A DNA stretch of 64,000 nt from a virus: positions 93,937-157,936 of IMG/VR virus record IMGVR_UViG_3300017971_000008, one strand, 5' to 3'. Made by a program: the position numbers and the translations under genes. Within the stretch, counting starts at the first letter, position 1; every line of letters starts with the position of its first letter. Below are positions 50,426 through 64,000 of this stretch, one piece after another. The notes under the pieces are model-generated. The model was given only the letters and a program-made list of their open reading frames with translations. It did no database searches and was not told where the DNA came from.

Positions 50426-50872
50426 ATGGGTAAGAAGGAAATCAGGTTTGTGGTCAAAGGTAAGCCATGGGTACAGAAGAACAACCTTCAGATCCGAAAG
50501 CGAAAGTTAAAGGGAAAATGGGTACCTTTCATCGACCATTCCGACAAGCTAAAGAGTATCCGGGACCAGATAGCCATCGAGATGTACTCGCAATATCACC
50601 GACAAGGCCTAACCAAACCTATCGATTACCCAATCGAAGTGGAGTTCATATTCTACTGCAAGCGCCAGTGGGAACCCGACCTGGACAACCTGCCGCAGAT
50701 ATGGCTGGACGCGGCCCAGGGGGTCAAGGCCAAGGGCGGATTGAAAATAGCAACCATTCTGACCGACGACAAGTTGGTCAGGAAAGAAACCAGCGAGAAA
50801 ATCATGGAAGGAGATCCCCGTTATGACGGAGAACCAAGAACCGAAATCACCATCCGAAGATACACCTTCTGA
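50426..50872 (+). CDS. rusA: RusA-family Holliday junction resolvase
   Basis: This 148-residue protein has FVVKGKPWVQKNN and a basic N-terminus, then PDLDNL (85-89, Asp85 and Asp87) with a downstream DAAQG (Asp95) and LTDDKLV (Asp114/115). These acidic residues match the RusA active site that cuts four-way junctions. It would resolve replication and recombination intermediates before packaging. It overlaps the trigger-factor-like gene by 50 nt. Confidence 0.85.
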   Translation: MGKKEIRFVVKGKPWVQKNNLQIRKRKLKGKWVPFIDHSDKLKSIRDQIAIEMYSQYHRQGLTKPIDYPIEVEFIFYCKRQWEPDLDNLPQIWLDAAQGVKAKGGLKIATILTDDKLVRKETSEKIMEGDPRYDGEPRTEITIRRYTF

Positions 50873-52139
50873 GGATGCAGAGGTATCCGAGGCCACCGGC
50901 ACAACTGCATCGACGGTGGAGATACCTGAAGGAAGTTCAGGCGCGACTCCTGAACTCGTAGAGGTGCCCGAGGAGGAACGCCTTCCGCCCTTGGACCCTG
51001 GCGGGGAGCTTATCGTGGAGCCATTGGCCCAGCAGTACCGGGCGGTCATTAAGGACCTGGACTATGAGGTACTTCGTGAGATGTTCGACAGGTACTGGGA
51101 TGCTCATGGTGAGGCCATTGCCCAGAACTCTCGGGTGAAGACCCGGAAGAAGAAGGGCGGTAAAGCGGGTAAGAACGCCAAAAAGGTACTTGAGAGCAGC
51201 ATGGGTTTCAAGAAGCTCTACTCCGAGGTACTGGTCCAGCATGTGGTTTCCAAGATAGGGGATGTTCTGCATATCAGTGCCATGGAACTTCATGACTTTA
51301 AGGAGGGCGCCAAGCCGGTCATTATCGTGGCGTTCTATTACCTTCCGAAACTGGAGGTTGACGAGATCAACCTCGATGTACCCTATCAGATGCGGGTGGA
51401 CGAGGAGAAGGAGTACCGCGGATACTGCGAGTACACCTTACTTCAGAATCGAACCTTAGAGGATTTCGATGGGGATGAGATCGACCCGTACCACAATGTT
51501 CTGATGGATGTGACCGCCACCATGGACGGTCAACCTTTCGAGCAGGGTTCCTTGAGGATGCAGTGGATGGACTTAGACCGGCACCCTAACAAGACCTTAG
51601 TCAACGCCATCCTGGAACATAAGAAGGGTGATCTGTTCGAGACTGAGTGGCTCCACGAGGGTAAGGTTGTCTCTGCCCAGGTGAAGATACATGCCCTTCA
51701 GACGATTACCTACCCGGAGCTGGATGACGAGTTCGCCAAGGATTTGGAGTTCGACAGTCTGGATGCTTTCAAAGAGAAGTTTATCAATGATTATCGGGAG
51801 AACGTAGAACGCCAGGAAGAGGCCATGGCGATTGATGGTATCATCAGCAACATTGTTGAGTCAGTGACTCTCCCTCCGCTTCCCGAGGAGTGGGTGGAGC
51901 ATAAGTCGGCTGCCGCCGTGAATGAGCATATTCGGCGTGTAGGTAACAAAAAGAGGGCTCTCCTGTCCGTGGGTGCCAAGGACGAGAATCAGATGCAGGC
52001 CAGGTTCCGTGGTCAGGTTTACAGAACTCTTGTGCAGCAACTGGCGGTGAAGGCCTACGCTGAGAAGTATGACCTAGGCGATGAGGAAGAGGACATCAAG
52101 AAGCACATGAAAGAGCATGTTAACTGGATTAAGAAATGA
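50823..52139 (+). CDS. tig: Trigger-factor-like chaperone
   Basis: This 438-residue protein has a disordered acidic N-terminus of about 55 residues. Residues 70-150 resemble the trigger factor ribosome-binding domain in layout (helices, then KLYSEVLVQHVVSKIGDVL) but lack the GFRxGxxP loop. The middle (residues 165-300) could be the FKBP-like domain. The C-terminus (about 300-435) has LDDEFAKDLEFDSLDAFKEKF, a strong match to the trigger factor C-terminal domain that cradles nascent chains. AAGGAG precedes the ATG. Trigger factor genes are rare in phages. It may assist folding of long structural proteins, such as those at 54985 and 60707, but this is inference. Confidence 0.7.
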   Translation: MTENQEPKSPSEDTPSEDAEVSEATGTTASTVEIPEGSSGATPELVEVPEEERLPPLDPGGELIVEPLAQQYRAVIKDLDYEVLREMFDRYWDAHGEAIAQNSRVKTRKKKGGKAGKNAKKVLESSMGFKKLYSEVLVQHVVSKIGDVLHISAMELHDFKEGAKPVIIVAFYYLPKLEVDEINLDVPYQMRVDEEKEYRGYCEYTLLQNRTLEDFDGDEIDPYHNVLMDVTATMDGQPFEQGSLRMQWMDLDRHPNKTLVNAILEHKKGDLFETEWLHEGKVVSAQVKIHALQTITYPELDDEFAKDLEFDSLDAFKEKFINDYRENVERQEEAMAIDGIISNIVESVTLPPLPEEWVEHKSAAAVNEHIRRVGNKKRALLSVGAKDENQMQARFRGQVYRTLVQQLAVKAYAEKYDLGDEEEDIKKHMKEHVNWIKK

Positions 52140-52780: not shown

Positions 52781-53122
52781 ATGAAGGCTGTAGAGCTACA
52801 ACTCCTTGAGCAGTTGGCCGAGGAGTACGGGATTTTTGAAAAAATGGGTAAGCGCCGACGTGTGGCCCAGGATGTTCTTGAGAACTCAATGTGGGCCAAC
52901 ATGATTAACGGCGCGTTGAAAGCCCTGGAGACCATTGCCATCATGAGTTTGGACTGGAAGTTGACGGCGATAGTCAAACTTTTACAGAGCTGGCTTAAAG
53001 ACCAGCGGGAGAAGCAGGAGCAGAAAAAACAGGAGTCGGAGTACGGTGCCGGGTATCATTCGGATACTTACGATCAGGGCAATGCTTACGACCAACCTTA
53101 TGGTGGAGGTACCTATTATTGA
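52781..53122 (+). CDS. Hypothetical protein, Tyr/Gly-rich tail
   Basis: This 113-residue protein has helices in residues 1-75 (KAVELQLLEQLAEEYG, MINGALKALETIAIMSLDWKL). The tail of about 30 residues is Gln/Lys- then Tyr/Gly/Asp-rich and disordered. It is expressed from its own element without a ribosome site. It is the first gene of the right-hand block. The family is not recognised. Confidence 0.55.
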   Translation: MKAVELQLLEQLAEEYGIFEKMGKRRRVAQDVLENSMWANMINGALKALETIAIMSLDWKLTAIVKLLQSWLKDQREKQEQKKQESEYGAGYHSDTYDQGNAYDQPYGGGTYY

Positions 53123-53170: not shown

Positions 53171-54022
53171 ATGAATAGAACAGCCAGAAAACAGAGACTT
53201 GCCCGTGCCAAACGCAGGGCTCATCATTTGTGGAAAGGGGCTGAGGAAGACGGCAGGCCGGTTATTAAACGAGCGCGGCCTGAAGAGGAATTTGAAATGT
53301 CTATGGAAGCAGGACGTGGGAAGCGTGGTCGCAGGACTGCCGGTCGGAACGAGGTGTCGGATCTGAATGCCGTATACTGGGGTCTGTTCGGGGCTTCCTT
53401 GGTGGACAGCAAAACCCTTTCGAGCGATATCCCTCGTTCGGTAGCGAATCAGTTCAATCGGACTGCTCGTCGGAATGCTGGCAACTTGCCGAGGGTTCTT
53501 GGATGGTCGAAGCTCGGTACCGCGTTCGCTACCGCGGACATTGCTGGTATTCGTAAAGACATCTCTTTCGGGATGCAGACCAGGTTGGCATCCAAGTATT
53601 TCAACGTGCCCTTTCTCGCTGCCGCAGACATAGTCTACGACATGGAAGGTGTGGACCACCGTCAGGTCAAGCAGGCTATCGACATGATCCGTGAGGGCAG
53701 GCGCCGAGAGGCGGTTAACCGGTATGGCGACTTGGCCATGGAGCTTTCCCGCATCTACACCAAGTACAAGGATGCCAAGAACCGCAAACTGGCTATCGAC
53801 CGATCCGCTAAGGAATATTGGGAGTCGTACCTGGGTCCTTTCGGCCAGGAGATGGTCCGCGAGATCAAGAAGCGTGTTCGTGCTGACCTCGCCAAGGCCT
53901 GGATGCGGAAGCACGGTGTTGACGATGCCGCTGCGGAGTACTGGGCCAGCTACTACGGGGAATACGGTGAGAAGTGGGTCTCCGTGGTCCCGAAGATGAT
54001 CTCTCCCAAGAGTGACGATTAA
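53171..54022 (+). CDS. Basic structural-type protein with SYxGxxG repeats
   Basis: This 283-residue protein has a very basic N-terminus (ARKQRLARAKRRAHH; GRGKRGRRTAGR near residues 49-60). Two copies of an A..YW.SY(L/Y)G.(F/Y)G motif lie near residues 215-228 and 256-268 (AKEYWESYLGPFGQ, AAEYWASYYGEYGE). A third copy occurs in the 1557-aa protein downstream. The basic part shares the KRGRR/AG flavour of the separators in the large proteins. This suggests these three genes belong to one system. No catalytic motif is seen. The start follows AGGTGG. Confidence 0.55.
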   Translation: MNRTARKQRLARAKRRAHHLWKGAEEDGRPVIKRARPEEEFEMSMEAGRGKRGRRTAGRNEVSDLNAVYWGLFGASLVDSKTLSSDIPRSVANQFNRTARRNAGNLPRVLGWSKLGTAFATADIAGIRKDISFGMQTRLASKYFNVPFLAAADIVYDMEGVDHRQVKQAIDMIREGRRREAVNRYGDLAMELSRIYTKYKDAKNRKLAIDRSAKEYWESYLGPFGQEMVREIKKRVRADLAKAWMRKHGVDDAAAEYWASYYGEYGEKWVSVVPKMISPKSDD

Positions 54023-54350: not shown

Positions 54351-54962
54351 ATGCGAAACGTGAAACAAGACCTAGCAAACGCTTCTGGTAAAGTTGTGAG
54401 TGATATTGGTGGTGGCCGTTTAGCTGCCATGTACGCGCAGAATGCTGCTGCGCGTAGAGCGTATGACCGTGGGAACGAAGGACGCACCCATGACGACCGT
54501 GTTGTTCTGGAGAAGCTCCGTGCCATGGTAGAGCGTGGCATCGAGGAATCCGACAAGAAAGCTGTCAGCGGGAGCCTCCCGGTGAACTCGGTGTTCAATG
54601 CGCTTCAGATAGTTAATGAGAACAAAGAGATCAATCGGGACGTTGGTCTCAAGGCTTTGAAAGGTCACCTGGAAGCCAAGTGGAAACGTGACCGTACAGC
54701 CAGTATCTCTGCCGACGACTACAACCAGATTCGAGAGACGTATACGAGAAATTATCCCCGTTCAGTGGTTGGCTCTGTGATTGATGAGATCGGACAGCAG
54801 GGTTACGTGACCCTTCCGTTATCGGATCTCATGCATATTGCCAGTAAGATTCGTACCCAAGGGGATTTCGATAGGCTGATGAGGCGGCACGGGCTTCATA
54901 CCAATCAGCTGCACCATAGAAAAGCCCGGAACTTCATCCTTTCGGTTGTCAACGGACGATAG
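54351..54962 (+). CDS. Hypothetical helical protein
   Basis: This 203-residue protein starts at the ATG after GAAAGGG. It is mainly helical and polar: LAAMYAQNAAARRAYDRG, VVLEKLRAMVERGI and ARNFILSVVNGR. Gln/His-rich LHTNQLHHRK lies near the C-terminus. It lies upstream of the giant gene and may share its transcript. The family is not recognised. Confidence 0.55.
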   Translation: MRNVKQDLANASGKVVSDIGGGRLAAMYAQNAAARRAYDRGNEGRTHDDRVVLEKLRAMVERGIEESDKKAVSGSLPVNSVFNALQIVNENKEINRDVGLKALKGHLEAKWKRDRTASISADDYNQIRETYTRNYPRSVVGSVIDEIGQQGYVTLPLSDLMHIASKIRTQGDFDRLMRRHGLHTNQLHHRKARNFILSVVNGR

Positions 54963-54984: not shown

Positions 54985-57900
54985 ATGCCTAAGAATAAAT
55001 CTATGCGAAATGGTCGTTTCACTCCGAGTTCAGTGGTCAATCGTATCCTTGATGGCAAGACGGTGACCGCGAATGGTTGGTCCATCGGCATTGACAACAA
55101 TGACAAGGTGGTGACCTGGCCACCCCGCGGCGATGGGTTCATGACCACCATGGCTAACATCGACAAGGCGGCGAAGGACTTCTGCAAGCAGGCAGAGATG
55201 CCCATGCCCAAGCCCTACACAGAGCCTGGAGATGCTGTGAGTGTCCCGAAGAGTCCCGGCCCTGACAGCGATTCCAAGAACATCTCCACCCCGAAGAATT
55301 ACGCGGACGGCTCCGAGAGTTCCATCAGCGTTCCCAAGAGTCCCGGCAAGGACACTGAGACCGATCACTTCACCAGTCCTGCGGTGAATGAGGGCGTAGC
55401 TCCGAAGGGACCAATGACCGACACCAGCCTGGGCAGCGATTCAGATTCCAGCGAGTCAGGTATGGGTAAGGATATCAAGCAGACTCCTGACGGGGTGAAG
55501 GATGCTCGTCGGAGGCAGGCTGCGTTCATGGAGCCTATGGTGTGGGAGAGTGACTTTTACGCTATCGATGGTGGTATGGGTACGACTTTTGTAGAAGTTG
55601 ATGTTGTGGGTGATATCCCTGTTACCGATTTAGAAGCCTTTGGAGACTACTATGAGGGCGGTTTTGAGGGGATTGAGGAAGTTGAAAAGGTGCATGGGTG
55701 GGGATCTCAGATGTCGGCTCCTGGGTATATGGATCAGACTGATCTTAGTGTTTATGATACCAAGGAAGAAGCTATTGAGGCTCTGTTTGAGTACTACATG
55801 ACAGATATGGGTGAGTTGGATGAGCAGTACGAAGAGTATCGTGACGAGTACGAGAAGTATTACCTCAAAGGCGAGAAAGAAGCCCGTCGCAAACCCGCCC
55901 GAAGACGCCCTGCTCGACGGAGGGCTCAGGGAGATGATTGGTCCGACGAACAGCACCAGGTTTGGGATGCGGTCGAACACGCGCTAGAGCAGTTGAACGC
56001 AGCTGAGTATGATCGTCAACGGGGTAAAGGTAAGAAGCCCTTGAAACAGTTCCATCCGAGTCCTGAAGGTGAGTTTTTGGAGGATCTTCGTCAGCAGTAC
56101 ATGCGAGGTGAGGTAGACGCTGAGACCGTAATGGCTACTTTGGCTAACCCTGAGCTTTGGGAAGCTCGATTTGGTGCGGCTCAAAAAAGAGCAAAAATCA
56201 TCGACACCTTCTCCCAGGAACCTGATGGGAAAGAAATCTACGCCAACCTCACGATGGCCCGACCGTCCGAAGCACTCCTGAAAGACATCGCGGACCCAGA
56301 CAAATGGCTGGCCACCCAGACCATTCGTGCCATGGAGGAAGATGTAGAAGCTGGGTGTGGTGGCGGTCCTGGCAAGAAACGCAAAAAAGAGGAAGCCGAA
56401 GCTGAGATGGAAGCTGGCTGTGGTCCTCCTGAGAAGAAATCCTTTCGTAGGAAAGGTCAGTCCGATGATTACGATGTGTACCTGAAAGATGAGATTCAGG
56501 GTGAGTGGCTCTCGGGAGACAAGGACAAGGCTCTGGAGATGCTTGCGGGAGCCGATGATTGGATGACTCTTTTTAACGCGATACACCAGGGCTTGAAGTT
56601 CGCTACCCCGCAGGAGGGTACTGACTGGCACTCTGCCGTGCGCCAGTACATGGAGTCTATCGGTAGGGACATGACTGCTCGACGCAGACCGCGCCGGTCG
56701 GTTCGCAAGAGGGGTCAGGATGAAGAAAACGGTGAGTATCCGATAGACCTGTATCTGGTGGTGTCTGACATTACAGAGTACATCAGTGGTCAACCTGAAG
56801 GAATAAATGTCACGGGTGCCTATGAGGTGCATTTAGTGGACGCTGCCGAACAGACCCATCTCGCGGAAATGACCCCTTCATACTACGGACGTTTTGTCGG
56901 GTTACAGGCAACCGTTGATGACTATGGTGCGCTTTCGGAGGAACAGGCAGAGGCTCTGAACGACTATGAAATTGAGTTGTCAAACTATACTGAGTCTGGT
57001 GACTATTTCCGTGAGGCGGATATCAAGTCTGGTGTTCCTTACGACAAGGCGACGGTCTCTGGCAAAGAGGAACGTGACGAGTACATAGAGGATACGGTCG
57101 AATACCTGCAAGGTAACACTGCTGATTGGGAAAACGCCATTGATGAGGTTGCTCGTAAGAAGACTTCCAAAACCCGCCGATCCTACGAAGAACCCGGCGC
57201 AGATCGCAACCTGGACGTACCCGATGAGTTCATTGCGATGGAACCCCCCAAGACTCCCAAGGACAAGGAAGCCCGTCGCCGCAGACGCTCCCAGGATGAG
57301 GGCGGTGTCTACACCTTCGACCAGCTCGACGAGAAGGCCAAGGAAAAAGCCCTTTACTGGTTTTTGGAAGATGCTGATGTCTTTGAGTGGGAGGCTGAAT
57401 ACGTCATCGACGACGCCAAGGAAAATGCCCCTGCCGGTTTTCAGATAGATGAGATTTTCTACAGCGGTTTTTCGTCGCAAGGCGATGGTGCTTCCTGGAC
57501 AGGTTGGGTGGATCTCGCAGAGTGGGCCAAGGCCACTAATCAGGACGAGGGCATTATCAGACTCGTTGAGAGTGAGGAGATTGAGTCCTCTGCCAAAGTT
57601 ACACAGGACGGGCGTTACTCTCATGAAAACACTATGGATGTCGAGGTTGTCATAGACCGTTATGAAGCTGATGAGGCTTCTGGCATGAGCGGAGACGAAA
57701 TCGAGGCCAATGCCGACCAGTTACAGGAGGCTGTGCTGGATGCAGTAAAGGACTATGCCAGAGAGATCTATAGCAGGTTGGAGCAGGGCTACGACCATGT
57801 CTATAGCGAAGAGAACCTGAGCTACCTGGCTGAGGCGAATGAATGGGTGTTCAACAAGGACGGTACCTTTGCTTGGGACAAGAGCTACGATGACCTGATC

Positions 57901-59658
57901 ACCCATCCTGATCAGATGAAGCTTCCTGGGGTAAAGGGCAAACGCAGACGTTCCTTTCGACGAAATGCTGGCCTATATGAAGACATTATGGATGCCGGTA
58001 TTGAGACCGACAACCATGAGTCGGACCTCTATTTTCCTGTAACTCCTGAATCAACTGAAATCCTGAAGAAGTACCCAATGAATGAAAAAAACTCTCAGAC
58101 GTTCATAGATAATATCAGTGGTGATGAATGGTATGATGTTCCCTTTGCGTTTCCAGGAGTTAGGGGTAATAGAAAACGCCAAGCAGGCCCCAAACTCCGC
58201 GAGAAGTGGAATGACGGTGGTGATTACTCCAGGGATCTGGAAGCCGAGTCTGCCGAGGAGCTCTACAACCTGACCATGGCCTTTGGCGGTGAAGAGGTTG
58301 ACTGGCCCGATACTACGGCTCAACCTGCCATGCCCGAGCAGGCACCTCCTGCTGAGGCACCTCCGGTCGGTGGCGTTGCCGCCGAAGAGGATATGTCCGA
58401 GGTAATGGCCAGCAGCAAGCTTGCCGAGTTCTCAGACATTGAGGCCGTGGACGATGAGGCCAAGAGCTACTACGAGAGTTACTTTGGCGAGTACGGCAAA
58501 CAACTGGTCAAGGACGATCCTCCTGGAAAGAAAGACAAGAAGGCCCCCAAGGACGGCAAACCTGAACTGGGCAAGCCAGAGAATAAGAAGGATAAGAAAA
58601 AGTCGAGGCTGGTTCGTCATAGGAAACCTGCTCGTCGGCACCCTCGTCGGAGGGCTCAGGACAAGAAGAACGGGCCTCGTTTTTTCGAGGAAGAAGAGGA
58701 TCTATACCGCTGCCCCAATTGTGGGCAGGAGGAATGGACTACGGAGAGTTTTTTGGACAAGGGTCCGAAATTTGAAAAGTGTCCTAATTGCAGTGAGGGG
58801 ATGGAGAGAGTAACCAGGGGACGGAGAACCCCTCGTCGGAGAGGCCAAGCCGCCCCCGCGGCACCGGCCCCCAAACAACCCGCAGCTCCTGCGGCACCCG
58901 CTGCACCAGCAGCGCCTGCGGCGGCACCTGCCGCCCCCGCGCCAGCACCTGCACAACCTGCTGACCCCGGTGCAGGAACGCCCCCCACGGGCAAGCCAGC
59001 AGCTCCTGGTGAGAAACTGGCACCCGGAGCAGGCGATGCCGGTATCCAGGCACTCGGATGGACTCCTGAGGACATCCAGACGATGACCGATGAGCAGAAG
59101 CAGGGCCTCCTGCAACTCAAGCTCATGAAACCCGGCGCACAGATACCTCAACCTCCGGGAACACAACCTCCTGGGAAGCCCGAAGGTAAGCCTGGGGTAC
59201 CGCCGAAAGCACCCGCGGGGCCTGCGGGTCCAGCAGGACCTCCCGGACCTGGAGAAGCGGCTCCTGGCGCACAGCCAGCGCAACCTGCACCGCAGGAGAA
59301 AGTTCAACCTGTAGTGGGTGCGATCAGCAAGATGCTGGCCCAGGTGGACCCCACGGCGGCTCCCGTGGACCCTACCATGGCCGGGGCACCCGCAGAGGCA
59401 GCCCCGGCACCCGCAGAGGCAGCCCCGGCACCCGCAGTAGGCGGTGAGCCGATTCTCTCTCCTGAGGAACAAGCATTTGCTATCCTTAGGGAGGTTCAAT
59501 CGCAGGACATGAGCGCCATCGATCCGAAGCAATTGGTATCCGCTAAGAGCCAGGAGCTGATCAGGCGGCTTCAGACTGAAATAGGTATGACCGTTCAAGA
59601 GGCCGAGAAACTGTTCGGCGTATCAAAGAGCAAGGGCTTCGCAAGCCTGTTTTCATAG
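54985..59658 (+). CDS. Giant modular protein with repeated Arg-rich separators (polyprotein-like)
   Basis: This protein has 1557 residues, with ATG 54985 chosen for its AAAGGAAG site over an upstream TTG. After a disordered N-terminus (about 1-175), modules are punctuated by basic separators such as ARRRPARRRAQ, FRRKGQ, VRKRGQ, ARRRRRSQ and PRRRGQ, nine in all. Modules resembling separate small phage proteins include 182-298 (SAPGYMDQTDLSVYDTKEEA), 771-985 (SGFSSQGDGASW) and 997-1062 (DNHESDLYFPVT, WYDVPFAF). Residues 1069-1212 include YYESYFGEYGKQLV, and 1226-1277 is a zinc ribbon (CPNC...CPNC). A Pro/Ala-rich tail follows, then helices ending in SKSKGFASLFS. Function is unknown. Confidence 0.75.
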   Translation: MPKNKSMRNGRFTPSSVVNRILDGKTVTANGWSIGIDNNDKVVTWPPRGDGFMTTMANIDKAAKDFCKQAEMPMPKPYTEPGDAVSVPKSPGPDSDSKNISTPKNYADGSESSISVPKSPGKDTETDHFTSPAVNEGVAPKGPMTDTSLGSDSDSSESGMGKDIKQTPDGVKDARRRQAAFMEPMVWESDFYAIDGGMGTTFVEVDVVGDIPVTDLEAFGDYYEGGFEGIEEVEKVHGWGSQMSAPGYMDQTDLSVYDTKEEAIEALFEYYMTDMGELDEQYEEYRDEYEKYYLKGEKEARRKPARRRPARRRAQGDDWSDEQHQVWDAVEHALEQLNAAEYDRQRGKGKKPLKQFHPSPEGEFLEDLRQQYMRGEVDAETVMATLANPELWEARFGAAQKRAKIIDTFSQEPDGKEIYANLTMARPSEALLKDIADPDKWLATQTIRAMEEDVEAGCGGGPGKKRKKEEAEAEMEAGCGPPEKKSFRRKGQSDDYDVYLKDEIQGEWLSGDKDKALEMLAGADDWMTLFNAIHQGLKFATPQEGTDWHSAVRQYMESIGRDMTARRRPRRSVRKRGQDEENGEYPIDLYLVVSDITEYISGQPEGINVTGAYEVHLVDAAEQTHLAEMTPSYYGRFVGLQATVDDYGALSEEQAEALNDYEIELSNYTESGDYFREADIKSGVPYDKATVSGKEERDEYIEDTVEYLQGNTADWENAIDEVARKKTSKTRRSYEEPGADRNLDVPDEFIAMEPPKTPKDKEARRRRRSQDEGGVYTFDQLDEKAKEKALYWFLEDADVFEWEAEYVIDDAKENAPAGFQIDEIFYSGFSSQGDGASWTGWVDLAEWAKATNQDEGIIRLVESEEIESSAKVTQDGRYSHENTMDVEVVIDRYEADEASGMSGDEIEANADQLQEAVLDAVKDYAREIYSRLEQGYDHVYSEENLSYLAEANEWVFNKDGTFAWDKSYDDLITHPDQMKLPGVKGKRRRSFRRNAGLYEDIMDAGIETDNHESDLYFPVTPESTEILKKYPMNEKNSQTFIDNISGDEWYDVPFAFPGVRGNRKRQAGPKLREKWNDGGDYSRDLEAESAEELYNLTMAFGGEEVDWPDTTAQPAMPEQAPPAEAPPVGGVAAEEDMSEVMASSKLAEFSDIEAVDDEAKSYYESYFGEYGKQLVKDDPPGKKDKKAPKDGKPELGKPENKKDKKKSRLVRHRKPARRHPRRRAQDKKNGPRFFEEEEDLYRCPNCGQEEWTTESFLDKGPKFEKCPNCSEGMERVTRGRRTPRRRGQAAPAAPAPKQPAAPAAPAAPAAPAAAPAAPAPAPAQPADPGAGTPPTGKPAAPGEKLAPGAGDAGIQALGWTPEDIQTMTDEQKQGLLQLKLMKPGAQIPQPPGTQPPGKPEGKPGVPPKAPAGPAGPAGPPGPGEAAPGAQPAQPAPQEKVQPVVGAISKMLAQVDPTAAPVDPTMAGAPAEAAPAPAEAAPAPAVGGEPILSPEEQAFAILREVQSQDMSAIDPKQLVSAKSQELIRRLQTEIGMTVQEAEKLFGVSKSKGFASLFS
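55501..58848 (+). repeat. Nine Arg-rich ARRRxAQ-type separators in the 1557-aa protein
   Basis: The in-frame basic elements lie at 55501-55527, 55879-55929, 56434-56460, 56677-56718, 57268-57294, 57940-57972, 58171-58188, 58621-58659 and 58816-58848. Most end in (A/G/S)Q or AG. Several share DNA: GAAGCCCGTCGC begins those at 55879 and 57268, and GGAGGGCTCAGG occurs at both 55919 and 58649. Confidence 0.7.
59385..59437 (+). repeat. Tandem 21-bp repeat in the Pro/Ala tail
   Basis: Two and a half copies of a 21-bp unit (GGCACCCGCAGAGGCAGCCC core) code APAEAAP twice. It is in frame and likely unstable in length. Confidence 0.7.
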
Positions 59659-59673
59659 ACGAGGAGAATTTCT

Positions 59674-60114
59674 ATGTCAGAAAAATATGTAGCGTATAAC
59701 CTAACAAAAGGTATCGTGAGCTTCGGGCTGGCGGTAGCCGTGGCACCAGAGGAGCTTGAAGGTCTTCCCTCGCACCGCAGGCGCAGAACTCTCAAGAGCA
59801 ACATCATTCAGATCGTGATCCCTTACGGAGAATCGATGGATTTGGTGGAGAAGACTGGGTTGTCGGCAGACCAGATAAAATCATCTGCCGAGCTGATAAA
59901 GCTCATTTCTCGGAATGCTGTTCGGGTTGAGGTCAGCAATGTGAAAGAAGATCCGAAGCCCGAGGAAGCTCCCAGGCCGCAGACCAGGACTCTCGATGAG
60001 CCGGTGGATGAGAAGGTCCAGGAGGACGCCCCTGAAGAGGAGGCTGATTCTGAGGGCAAGAAGGCTTCCAAGAAGTCGGACAAGAAGTCCAAGAAGTCTA
60101 AAAAGAAGGGTTAA
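59674..60114 (+). CDS. Hypothetical protein with Lys-rich tail
   Basis: This 146-residue protein is preceded by GAGGAG. The first 95 residues form an alpha/beta domain (YVAYNLTKGIVSFGLAVAV, NIIQIVIPYGESMDLV). The rest is acidic, then Lys/Ser-rich (KKASKKSDKKSKKSK). It is probably a virion or DNA-associated protein by composition. The family is not recognised. Confidence 0.55.
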   Translation: MSEKYVAYNLTKGIVSFGLAVAVAPEELEGLPSHRRRRTLKSNIIQIVIPYGESMDLVEKTGLSADQIKSSAELIKLISRNAVRVEVSNVKEDPKPEEAPRPQTRTLDEPVDEKVQEDAPEEEADSEGKKASKKSDKKSKKSKKKG

Positions 60115-60120
60115 GCCGCG

Positions 60121-60684
60121 GTGCTAGTAAAATCCCATAGCCTCAGGTTCTTGGAGGACTATGGGATAGTACGCGGTAAGACTGTTCACCTGTACGAAAA
60201 TGGCGACGTGACTGTAAAGCAGTGTTCGCCGGTTTCACCCGTTCTACGGGTCAATGCTTTGTGGCTGAATAGGGACTTGAAAGTGAAGTGTGACGTGGCA
60301 GACACCCCGGCGAAAAAGAGACTCGGACTTCAGGATCATTCCGAGCTTTCAGAGAGCCGTGGTATGTACTTCCCGTATGTGAAGTACTCCAACGTGACCT
60401 TCCACCAAGGGTCCGTACCTTTCAGCTTAGACCTTCTTTTTTTAAGAGATAATGTGGTGGTGGATGTTGAGGAGCTCACCAAGGTTGGTTCAAGCGACCG
60501 GTGGAGCTGCTCGGGGTGTGATGGGGTACTTGAAGTCAATGGTGGCTGGTGCGCCGACAAACAGGTGTGCCTGGGGGATAAGATAGCGTTGTTCGCGCTT
60601 ACCCAGCGTGACCTCGATGAGCTGGAAGCTGAACGTAAGGCTGACAGTTTTTTGTCGATGGTTGCTGATAGGATAGTGGTGTAG
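60121..60684 (+). CDS. DUF192-like protein
   Basis: This 187-residue protein starts at GTG. Residues about 50-125 match DUF192: VKCDVADTPAKKRLGLQDHSEL, then ESRGMYFPYV, VTFHQGSVPFSLDLLFLRDN and VVVDVEEL. DUF192 proteins are usually secreted or periplasmic small beta-barrels of unknown role. This one has no signal peptide. A Cys-rich element CSGC...CADKQVC lies after the domain. It sits between two structural-type genes. Confidence 0.6.
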   Translation: MLVKSHSLRFLEDYGIVRGKTVHLYENGDVTVKQCSPVSPVLRVNALWLNRDLKVKCDVADTPAKKRLGLQDHSELSESRGMYFPYVKYSNVTFHQGSVPFSLDLLFLRDNVVVDVEELTKVGSSDRWSCSGCDGVLEVNGGWCADKQVCLGDKIALFALTQRDLDELEAERKADSFLSMVADRIVV

Positions 60685-60706
60685 GTTCAAAAAGGAAGAT
60701 ATTGAG

Positions 60707-63700
60707 ATGAACATCAACGAACTGAGAAATAAGGGTCACGTCAAGAACAGCCCGATCATTAAAGGTCTCAAGCGGCAGCAGCGTCTGGTGCAGGCTAATT
60801 TGAATCGTCATGCCCAGCAGCATTCCTTGACGGATATGTTCTCTGCTTTGAAACCCGGTGCTCGGGAGGATGACCGGCAGCTTCATTCACTGGTAAAGAC
60901 CGCTGTGAGTGAGACGAACGATCTGCTCAACCAGTTCTACTTTCCTGTGGCGCCTCAACTGGCCTTCACCAAGGTTAAGAATGTCAAGTACGCCAAGCAC
61001 GATGACTCCGAGGTGGTGTCCGGTTGCATCATGCTCAATTGCAAGATCGCTTCGTTGAGTGGTGTGGACGTGGACGCGGACATCCCGGTTCATGTTGAGC
61101 GTGGAGAGCTTGTACTGCCTTCAGTGCTGTACCAGGATGGTCGGGAGCATGTGATTGCTCAGTCCACTATCGACATGATTACCCAGCGTCATACCTCGTA
61201 TGCGCTGCCCGAGCTGCGCCAGCAGGGGGAACCTCCCTATGACCTGGAGGAAGCCAAGATGGCCACCGAGTCCAGGAACGCCATCGGGTACCAGCCCAGG
61301 AAACCGATATACCTGGACGAGGTAACACAGAATAACGATTTCAGGGACAAACGACCCAGGATCGCCGCCAAAGGCGCTCCACTCGGATTCAAGATAGTCA
61401 AGGAGGAGATGGACAAGGCCGAGGCGGATGGTCTCGATACCTTCCCCAGACCTATCGACTACATCCTGGCCACCTATGTCAGGCCGATCATGGGTGAGGT
61501 GTACATGAGCGCATGGGCGCCGGCCCTCACCAACGGCGGGTACGCGATCAACCCCTACGGAGAGAACCGCGGCAGGCCTAAGACGGGGAGTCGTCGGAAA
61601 GTTGCGGGTCTGGGAGACAAATTCATCGACAATTTCGGTGACGTTAATTGGTTGGAGCATGGCGGCAAGCTGCTTTTTGAAGGGGAGTCCGGCCCTTACG
61701 TGGTAGTGGTTGATACCTGGCGATTGGATGACGGTCAAGCCGAAGGTGAGTCCGATCCTGATATGATTTGGGATGTCTATCGTGTGGATATTGAGGACGG
61801 TTTCAAGGAAGACGAGAACGGCGATGTCATAGGATCTAATGGTTATACTGAGTGGTGGTCTAAGCGGGATGAGATGGAAGGCATCGCGTCTACGGTGGGT
61901 CAGGATGTTGAGGAGTTCATAGATGACATTACTTCGGAAGACTTGAAAGATCGTTTTTTTGCGTATGATACGATTGCAGCTACCTGGGGATGGGAAAATC
62001 TCGAAGGAGGGCCTGCTGACCAGTACGACATAGACGACCTTGTTCGGCTCTTTGAGGGTACTGAGTTAGAGGAAACTGTAAAAGATGTTGCCGAATTTCG
62101 GGATTTGGGGCTGGCGCAGAGAGACGAAGAAGCCGAAGATGAGTTCAGTGATTATGCCGACGAGGACGACCCGGATGAGGGTTACGATTTCAAGGAAGCC
62201 CGTCGCCGCCGAGCTGGAGAACCTTTTGGCACAGACGTAGATTTCTTTGAACAGTGGTTTCACGGTGCGGGTTTCTATAGCTTTGGAGACATGATAGAGG
62301 GTTACTTCGATTTGAATGACGATGACCTAGTCACTGTTGCTGCTGCGACTGACGGTGGCAGCATGTCTCCCCCTTATGCCCTTTTGATAGAGCAAGGCGG
62401 CAACCCTGATGTGATGATGGACGCTGTTGTAGAGATGCTTGAAGAGAATTTGCGGCATTTCCGAAGTGATGACATCGATAAGGCTTATCAAGAAGAATTG
62501 AAAGAGCGCGGCATTAGGGACTTCGATGACTATGCTGATGACGATGACATGGATGAGGAGCGGTGGGACATCCAGTCTGAGATAGACCAACAGTATGCGG
62601 GTGCCGAAGGTTTAGAGCTTTTCAAAATCCCACCTCAAGATCTGTTGCGTATTATCAAAGGTCATCGGAACTCCGAAGAGTTGCTGGAGCGTATCGGGGT
62701 TGAGGGGCTGGACTATGAAAGCGCCGAAGAAGACTTCAGTGAACGAGAAGCTCGTCGGTATGAAGCGGGATATGGTTCTGAAACTGGTGATTGGGGTGAG
62801 CCTCACAAGTTGCATGGTGTAACCTATCTTGAACTCCCAGACGGACGCTGGGAGGTTCCTGGCAACCAGGGCATGCCTGCTGAATTTTTTGACAGCGAGA
62901 GTGACGCTCGGGACTACATTGCCTCGTACAAGGACAATGGCCGAGAAGCCCGTCGCCGTGCCCAGGTAGAGGTAGACGCCGAAGAAGCCGAGATGATCAT
63001 CATGAACGATGAGGGCATGTACAACGAGGCCATGTTCATCGTTCGGCAATGGAACGGCACCAACATAAAAGACATCACCGCAGACTTCATGGAGTACTTT
63101 GGAGATCTCAGCGAGACCATGGATGTGGGTGACTGGGAGGATGTTGCCCGAGAGATTATTGAGGGGATGGAAGATGACGAAGAACATCCTCCAGGGATGG
63201 AACCTGATTCCACCTGGGAGAGCAAGTGGGAGTTGATGCTCAAGGAGGGTGTGAGTGGTTCTGTGGATATTGAGGTAGAGTACGATTACATGGTGTTCGA
63301 GGACGGAATCACGCAGTACTATCCTGATGCGGATTTGGTTGAGAGTGGGGACAACTATGATAACCAGATGCTCAAGGCAATAGAAGCCAAGTACCCGGAT
63401 GCTTATGTGTCGGTGCAGCCTGGAGCGCGTGACGACATTACTGTGACCGTGAATGTCGATGAGCAAGGAGATGAGTCTGATCAGTTGGAAGATAAGAGAC
63501 TTACCTGGATGCTGGCCAAAGAGAAAGAGATTCAGTCTGACGTTAGAGACATGATGGAAGAGGGTGTTGAGTCCTGGGACTGGCTTGTGGAAGCTGGTGA
63601 GGACGACAATGGCCGGGAGGCCCGTCGCCGCAAGGCCCAACAGGTTAGACTGGATGCGGGTCAGTTCGGGTGGGACTATCTTTTGGTAAATGAAGAGACT

Positions 63701-64000
63701 GGTGAGGACATCCTTATCCAGACAGATTGGGACTATCCTGGCGTGGCTTCTTATTTGGGGTGGCAGCATATTTGTCCTGATGGGGAAGCCCATGGTGAGA
63801 CTGACGGGACGGTTGACTGTCCAGTGTGTGGAGAATCCTCAAGTGACATGATTGGGGAAGCAGGAGAGTTCCTGGACGATCACATTGGGGATACCTTTGA
63901 AGACCCGGGATATTTCAGCGAGTCCAGAGGGGCCAAACGGAGATGGTTTCGGCAAGGTCAATCAATGGAGTTAGAGGATCTCCCTGCGTGGCAGACTACA
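60707..64000 (+). CDS. Giant modular protein, open at the window edge (partial)
   Basis: At least 1098 residues are read from the ATG at 60707 (AAAGGAAG site) with no stop before the edge. Residues 1-390 look like an independent domain (LNQFYFPVAPQLAFTKVKNV, then NPYGENRGRPKTG). Five basic separators follow: 62195-62218 (EARRRRAG), 62747-62770 (weak, EARRYEAG), 62936-62965 (GREARRRAQ), 63608-63643 (GREARRRKAQQ) and 63932-63961 (AKRRWFRQGQ). The module at about 980-1075 has ILIQTDWDYPGVASYLGW and CPVCG, which I recall as a stand-alone phage domain. The build matches the 1557-aa gene, so the two likely share one system. Confidence 0.75.
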   Translation, partial: MNINELRNKGHVKNSPIIKGLKRQQRLVQANLNRHAQQHSLTDMFSALKPGAREDDRQLHSLVKTAVSETNDLLNQFYFPVAPQLAFTKVKNVKYAKHDDSEVVSGCIMLNCKIASLSGVDVDADIPVHVERGELVLPSVLYQDGREHVIAQSTIDMITQRHTSYALPELRQQGEPPYDLEEAKMATESRNAIGYQPRKPIYLDEVTQNNDFRDKRPRIAAKGAPLGFKIVKEEMDKAEADGLDTFPRPIDYILATYVRPIMGEVYMSAWAPALTNGGYAINPYGENRGRPKTGSRRKVAGLGDKFIDNFGDVNWLEHGGKLLFEGESGPYVVVVDTWRLDDGQAEGESDPDMIWDVYRVDIEDGFKEDENGDVIGSNGYTEWWSKRDEMEGIASTVGQDVEEFIDDITSEDLKDRFFAYDTIAATWGWENLEGGPADQYDIDDLVRLFEGTELEETVKDVAEFRDLGLAQRDEEAEDEFSDYADEDDPDEGYDFKEARRRRAGEPFGTDVDFFEQWFHGAGFYSFGDMIEGYFDLNDDDLVTVAAATDGGSMSPPYALLIEQGGNPDVMMDAVVEMLEENLRHFRSDDIDKAYQEELKERGIRDFDDYADDDDMDEERWDIQSEIDQQYAGAEGLELFKIPPQDLLRIIKGHRNSEELLERIGVEGLDYESAEEDFSEREARRYEAGYGSETGDWGEPHKLHGVTYLELPDGRWEVPGNQGMPAEFFDSESDARDYIASYKDNGREARRRAQVEVDAEEAEMIIMNDEGMYNEAMFIVRQWNGTNIKDITADFMEYFGDLSETMDVGDWEDVAREIIEGMEDDEEHPPGMEPDSTWESKWELMLKEGVSGSVDIEVEYDYMVFEDGITQYYPDADLVESGDNYDNQMLKAIEAKYPDAYVSVQPGARDDITVTVNVDEQGDESDQLEDKRLTWMLAKEKEIQSDVRDMMEEGVESWDWLVEAGEDDNGREARRRKAQQVRLDAGQFGWDYLLVNEETGEDILIQTDWDYPGVASYLGWQHICPDGEAHGETDGTVDCPVCGESSSDMIGEAGEFLDDHIGDTFEDPGYFSESRGAKRRWFRQGQSMELEDLPAWQTT
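62195..63961 (+). repeat. Five Arg-rich separators in the partial giant protein
   Basis: Copies at 62195, 62936 and 63608 share the DNA core GARGCCCGTCGCCGY, and those at 62936 and 63608 also share the AATGGCCG lead-in. The same core GAAGCCCGTCGCCGC also appears at 57268 in the other giant gene, so conservation goes beyond amino acid level. Confidence 0.75.

Follow-up and report, generated by a model that had tools for sequence, protein, structure and literature searches.

Exchangeable modules and a shared basic junction in giant proteins and leader genes of a large phage

Closest described systems

The internal proteins IPI-III and Alt of phage T4 carry a capsid targeting sequence that is cut by gp21. 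Only few such leader genes are present in T4, the cleavage motif is different from the one described here, and separator-joined chains are, to our knowledge, not known from this phage. The polyvalent proteins of phages and conjugative elements combine unrelated and mostly enzymatic domains in one chain, often with an embedded zincin peptidase (about 36%), and it has been suggested that they reach the host together with the DNA and undergo processing (Iyer et al. 2017, PMC5512222). In the giant phages SPN3US and phiKZ, head proteins are cut after AXE or SXE (PMC7411985, PMC10052503), and phage P1 packages the anti-restriction Dar proteins in its head, with an N-terminal targeting signal of 30 residues in DarB (PMC9024508). 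Phage PaBG processes its MCP, which has been reported to resemble that of Rctr197k, and several of its virion proteins are found in more than one band (PMC7412058).

A literature search gave no description of junction-separated head cargo chains of the kind analyzed here, for which polyvalent proteins are the nearest described kind and the T4 internal proteins the nearest working analogue. Like polyvalent proteins, the giant proteins of this locus hold several unrelated domains per polypeptide, with relatives of unlike size and family. Unlike them, they are built from small domains without known activity, the proteins A to E lack HEXXH, and one recurrent junction is common to the leaders of single-domain genes. 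The 2052-AA protein Rctr197k_173 (L038:14973-21128), in which duplicated pyrophosphatase-like, ParB-like and phosphoesterase-like parts were recognized by eye, looks closer to the classical polyvalent kind. As in the T4 internal proteins, a short common N-terminal leader is found on unrelated small proteins (two families, about 20 genes), for which head targeting and leader removal by the maturation protease may be proposed by analogy. SPN3US and phiKZ likewise have many ejected head proteins with propeptides, some of them cut at several sites; however, these cuts remove propeptides, and their sites have not been reported to connect exchangeable cargo domains. The P1 Dar proteins differ in being separate proteins with neither a shared junction nor cassette arrays. 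Distinctive here is one junction code common to leader genes and chains, with the same domains exchanged between both.

Giant proteins and their separators

The window, i.e. the whole stretch of 64,000 nucleotides that was analyzed, covers positions 93937-157936, the final 64 kb of a viral record of 157,936 bp; its phage is referred to as G000. Both ends of this record share an exact direct repeat of 123 bp and are thus those of a circular or terminally redundant sequence, so that the gene of giant protein B, which is open at the window edge, continues at the record start. Both open reading frames claimed in an earlier note on this DNA were recovered at the same positions, as was its count of 14 separators in the window, of which 9 end in (A/G/S)Q and 5 in AG; a further variant, RRRQAA, can be added (Table 1). 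A third protein of the same make, giant C (578 AA), is encoded downstream of giant B, and the three proteins comprise 10 (A), 13 (B) and 3 (C) segments. Searches of viral contigs with the full-length giant proteins gave no relatives, and a search of phages with giant B was equally negative.

The giant genes are preceded by those of the core proteins D and E and of a 113-AA cluster protein, whose relative in the related phage G002 has KRKKSQ/QNPLDNSMW at the position of its junction-like site (slashes mark junctions). Two genes upstream of this cluster protein lies a gene for a phage protein with a trigger factor C-terminal domain (window 50823-52139; PF05698, E 4e-9), and a DUF192 (COG1430) gene is located between giant A and giant B (window 60121-60684; E 8e-18). 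A repeated motif, AxxY(W/Y)xxY(F/Y)GxYGxxL, is common to the core proteins A and D as well as to distant relatives of both and is possibly a docking element.

Table 1. Positions in the window of the giant and core proteins, selected modules and separators.
Feature	Position	Strand	Remark
113-AA cluster protein	52781..53122	+	one junction-like site, KRRRVAQ/DVLENSMW
Core protein D	53171..54022	+	bare here; G004/G005 relatives with modules appended after RKKAQ junctions
Core protein E	54351..54962	+	bare here; G004/G005 relatives with modules appended after (K/R)AQ-type junctions
Giant protein A	54985..59658	+	1557 AA from ATG; core ends A1 and A10, modules between
Separator variant RRRQAA	55507..55524	+	starts module A2; G002 equivalent GAKVAQ/FMQP
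Module A2, SAPGYMD type	55525..55911	+	B11 paralogue; separate BcepSauron relative
Separator ARRRAQ	55912..55929	+	giant A
Separator FRRKGQ	56443..56460	+	giant A
Separator SVRKRGQ	56698..56718	+	giant A
Separator ARRRRRSQ	57271..57294	+	giant A, directly before module A6
Module A6, SGFSSQGDGAS type	57295..57942	+	full-length phrog_5162; separate 207-AA gene in phage V5
Separator RRRSFRRNAG	57943..57972	+	giant A; low-confidence, non-helical in predicted model
Module A7, DNHESDLY type	57973..58170	+	compact alpha/beta domain, pLDDT above 90
Separator RKRQAG	58171..58188	+	giant A
Segment A8	58189..58641	+	AKSYYESYFGEYGKQL core motif; order with A7 reversed in G002
Separator PRRRAQ	58642..58659	+	giant A
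Separator PRRRGQ	58831..58848	+	giant A, precedes conserved C-terminal segment
Giant protein B	60707..64000	+	1098 AA in window, open at its edge; rest at record positions 124-2211; 1793 AA in total, read across the terminal repeat
Conserved core segment B1	60707..61591	+	in G002 joined to C-terminal segment, about 95 AA between
Separator RRKVAG	61592..61609	+	giant B; inserted module array begins here
Separator RRRRAG	62201..62218	+	giant B
Separator RRYEAG	62753..62770	+	giant B
Separator ARRRAQ	62948..62965	+	giant B
Separator ARRRKAQ	63620..63640	+	giant B, directly before module B6
Module B6, QTDWDYPGVAS type	63641..63931	+	leader gene in 212-kb phage contig
Separator KRRWFRQGQ	63932..63961	+	giant B

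The repeated site is located at the module borders of the giant proteins and is strongly enriched in them. The three giant proteins contain the pattern RR-x(0-3)-(A/G/S)Q 2.29 times per 1000 AA, compared with 0.18 times in the other ORFs of G000 (about 13x), and its 9 occurrences in the giant proteins stand against a mean of 0.39 and a maximum of 4 in 1000 shuffles of the giant proteins. For junctions in general, core and chain proteins exceed the other ORFs in G000 (2.66 vs 0.54 per 1000 AA), G004 (3.78 vs 0.35) and G005 (3.15 vs 0.30), the excess being weak in G002 (0.93 vs 0.28, p=0.14), where each set of other ORFs stems from greedy ORF calls that include some spurious frames.

Cassettes, leader genes and exchange of formats

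At the level of the sequences compared, cassette behavior and a shared junction grammar were demonstrated. Set and order of the core proteins are the same in G002 (170 kb; MCP 77% identical). The giant C counterpart of this phage lacks exactly segment C2, which sits between two separators in G000, and its B counterpart of 475 AA consists of both conserved ends with a single short region between them, the 11 modules of G000 being absent. In the A counterpart (785 AA), several modules are missing and the order of A7 and A8 is reversed. In G004 (175 kb) and G005 (163 kb), whose protease is 48% identical, modules are appended to the D and E proteins after RKKAQ, NKRAQ or similar sequences, and core protein D of G004 contains a 117-bp tandem repeat with three near-identical copies of a unit made of separator and module. 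Further features of these genomes were observed in passing. The portal match of G004 (L102, G004:C1:2457 onward) lies within a 1623-AA open frame, where about 640 residues separate its two parts, as if the gene were split by an intein or another insert. G002 contains about 40 small ORFs that start with MKxxGK and stand in tandem runs (L021, L022), and at least 17 of its ORFs are made up of (D/N)SV repeats such as MKTLGKPVRNSVRNSVWDSV.

These clean insertions between separators, the change of order and the occurrence of the domains in other formats bear out the suggestion of the earlier note that the giant proteins form a modular platform in which separate phage proteins are brought together. 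The search for the separator in other phages that it proposed did find junctions in the relatives, where Lys/Arg takes the place of the Arg run. The Arg-rich separator thus holds for G000 but not as a general feature, the common part being basic-x-A-Q. Its description of four modules as small stand-alone phage proteins was right in all four cases, since each of them has a separate relative.

The relative of the SAPGYM module is BcepSauron_040, a separate 176-AA gene of the Burkholderia phage BcepSauron. Module A6 matches phrog_5162 (E 1e-26, positions 5-196/201) from residue 771, right after the separator, and its relative is gp180 of E. coli phage V5. Module A7 was found in 56 viral contigs, mostly as small separate ORFs; searches of the PDB by fold and by sequence gave no significant match for it. 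In the AlphaFold2 model, A7 is compact with blocks above 90 pLDDT and its flanking separators reach 54-66, while the model of A6 is of low confidence (58). Module B6 gave no match in phages, in plasmids or in a first viral scan; a DNA pattern then located a 157-AA relative in one other phage contig (212 kb), where this domain, part of giant B here, stands behind a leader. Pfam, PHROGs and NCBIfam give a function for none of the modules.

Outside the giant genes, HMM searches at N-termini identified about 20 other genes of G000 that start with one of two common leaders (MRLKGLSDKGVKRVARTIKAQ; MRHEDFIKGVNKNAA...), the short genes having leaders of the MRLKGLSDKGVKRVARTIKAQ or the MRHEDFIKGVNKNAARAV type; type-1 leaders are present in G002 and G004 as well. 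Among 21 leader genes of G000, 13 have (A/G/S)Q near residue 20 and 8 do not. Lys is common at P3 of the leader junctions and mostly acidic residues follow them, as at the separators; because the final Q and the preceding small residue were selected by the search pattern, only these flanks count as evidence. Gene 13526 encodes phrog_1915 (5-139/141) from residue 26, right after the leader, and gene 46356 consists of a leader and DUF7249.

Several domains change between these formats. HESDLY is a module of giant A, a leader gene in G004, a chain unit in G005 and a small separate gene elsewhere. A 300-AA chain of G005 starts with a leader ending in KKAQ, followed by the HESDLY unit, ASRRSAQ, a unit that we read as ankyrin-like, a second ASRRSAQ and a DUF7249 unit; DUF7249 therefore stands singly behind a leader in G000 but within a chain in G005. 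For KTSC, three formats are seen, with a leader gene in G002, a separate one in G004 and G005 and a fusion in G000. Two RRHAM sequences were considered as junction sites and rejected: the one in the fused KTSC protein goes back to a start codon that is now internal, and the one in the scaffold is not conserved.

Head context and the reading of the junctions

The core genes of Rctr197k and G003 are immediate neighbors of TerL, portal, protease and MCP; those of G000, G002, G004 and G005 do not adjoin the terminase. The leader genes of G000 and G002 are found among the genes between MCP and tail sheath. From this gene context, core and leader proteins are likely to be located in the head. The reading that we favor by a small measure is that they are pro-proteins inside the head, with leaders for capsid targeting and junctions for cleavage during maturation, and that their cargo would be delivered with the DNA. 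A, B and C, and in relatives also D and E, would be head-internal core proteins into which interchangeable cargo cassettes have been inserted, with a basic-x-(A/G/S)Q junction bordering each of them, and about 20 more cargo proteins would be encoded singly behind the two leaders, most of which end in the same junction type. Leader or core protein would bring the cargo into the prohead, where the head maturation protease, or another protease, would cut the junction at a putative scissile bond before or after Q, removing the leader or splitting the chain. The freed and mostly acidic domains would then exit with the DNA and act early in the cell.

A head-internal location is favored because the core genes adjoin head genes in Rctr197k and G003 and the leader genes lie between MCP and sheath, and pro-proteins are favored because whole families (phrog_5162, phrog_1915) start right after a junction. 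The occurrence of one domain in several formats favors both cassettes and pro-proteins. A processed polyprotein is the most economical reading of the separators, since about 20 other genes encode leader peptides with ends that match these junctions. Cleavage at the junctions is considered fairly probable. No HEXXH was found in A to E of G000 or G002, and Pfam and NCBIfam gave no peptidase match; the missing HEXXH indicates that there is no embedded zincin and that processing would occur in trans. G000 does encode a head maturation protease (record 73318-74223; phrog_18299, E 4e-30), which speaks for the favored reading, as does the processing of virion proteins in PaBG, an MCP relative. Nevertheless, several points argue against cutting by this enzyme. 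The conserved part of the MCP starts without an AQ junction (RRLTS/KRDE in G000, QRHAS/VQDE in G003; the slash marks this start), and the protease N-terminus keeps Q in two phages only, G000 (FRKTAQ) and G002 (FRKISQ), with S, S, E and R in the others. In addition, several separators end in AG, AF or QA instead of (A/G/S)Q, and some leaders lack the site. The head protease may thus about as well be as not be the enzyme that cuts the junctions, and delivery of the cargo with the DNA is judged to be similarly balanced. Early host-directed or counter-defense roles of the cargo are a guess by analogy.

Alternatively, the giant proteins could work intact in head or cell as an uncleaved modular platform, with the separators as flexible basic linkers that perhaps bind packaged DNA. 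The strongly basic separators next to modules with a pI of mostly 4.1-5, the predicted folded module between low-confidence linkers and an MCP without the motif would all agree with this. However, it leaves unexplained why the AQ or GQ ending is common to the junctions and the leaders of single-domain genes and why relatives have Lys in place of the Arg run but keep AQ, and we regard it as unlikely. A polyprotein that is processed but not packaged, being cut in the cell by another phage or host protease, with the leader as a sorting or stability signal without a tie to the head, appears improbable, given that head genes are next to the core genes in two relatives and that the leader genes of G000 and G002 are placed between those for capsid and sheath. 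Consistent with it, the N-termini of MCP and protease share the motif inconsistently, and the V5 relative of A6 is located among small genes with annotated sigma-70 promoters, which implies an action in the cell for at least one of the cargo families. That the separators are mainly DNA-level recombination sites for cassette shuffling, with a peptide that has no function of its own, is very improbable, since relatives have this peptide ending despite other codons and another K/R composition, and it is also found in leaders, where no shuffling point is needed.

Such recombination may nevertheless hold alongside processing. The duplicated unit of G004 includes the junction, and the Arg codons of the junctions are skewed: in counts made after seeing the data, the first Arg is CGT in 14/22 and the pair CGT CGC occurs in 8/22, compared with a genome-wide Arg usage of 0.16 for CGT and 0.12 for CGC. 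This skew implies that the junctions share ancestry as DNA, and they seem to have spread in this form along with the modules.

For the pro-protein reading, a wider proposal can be put forward tentatively, with somewhat less than even confidence: a polyprotein system of tailed phages that is cut in trans, in which a junction code read by the head protease would serve both as the end of leaders and as the joint between cargo domains. A phage could then acquire cargo in two ways, by a leader gene or by a cassette within a head core protein. If this is true, a single peptide code would mark head-delivered cargo in this group of large phages, and uncharacterized phage proteins could be listed as early, injected factors by sequence alone; HESDLY, DUF7249, phrog_1915, phrog_5162 and KTSC, from the chains described here, would be candidates. 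Phage heads would thereby join the viruses that use trans-cleaved polyproteins.
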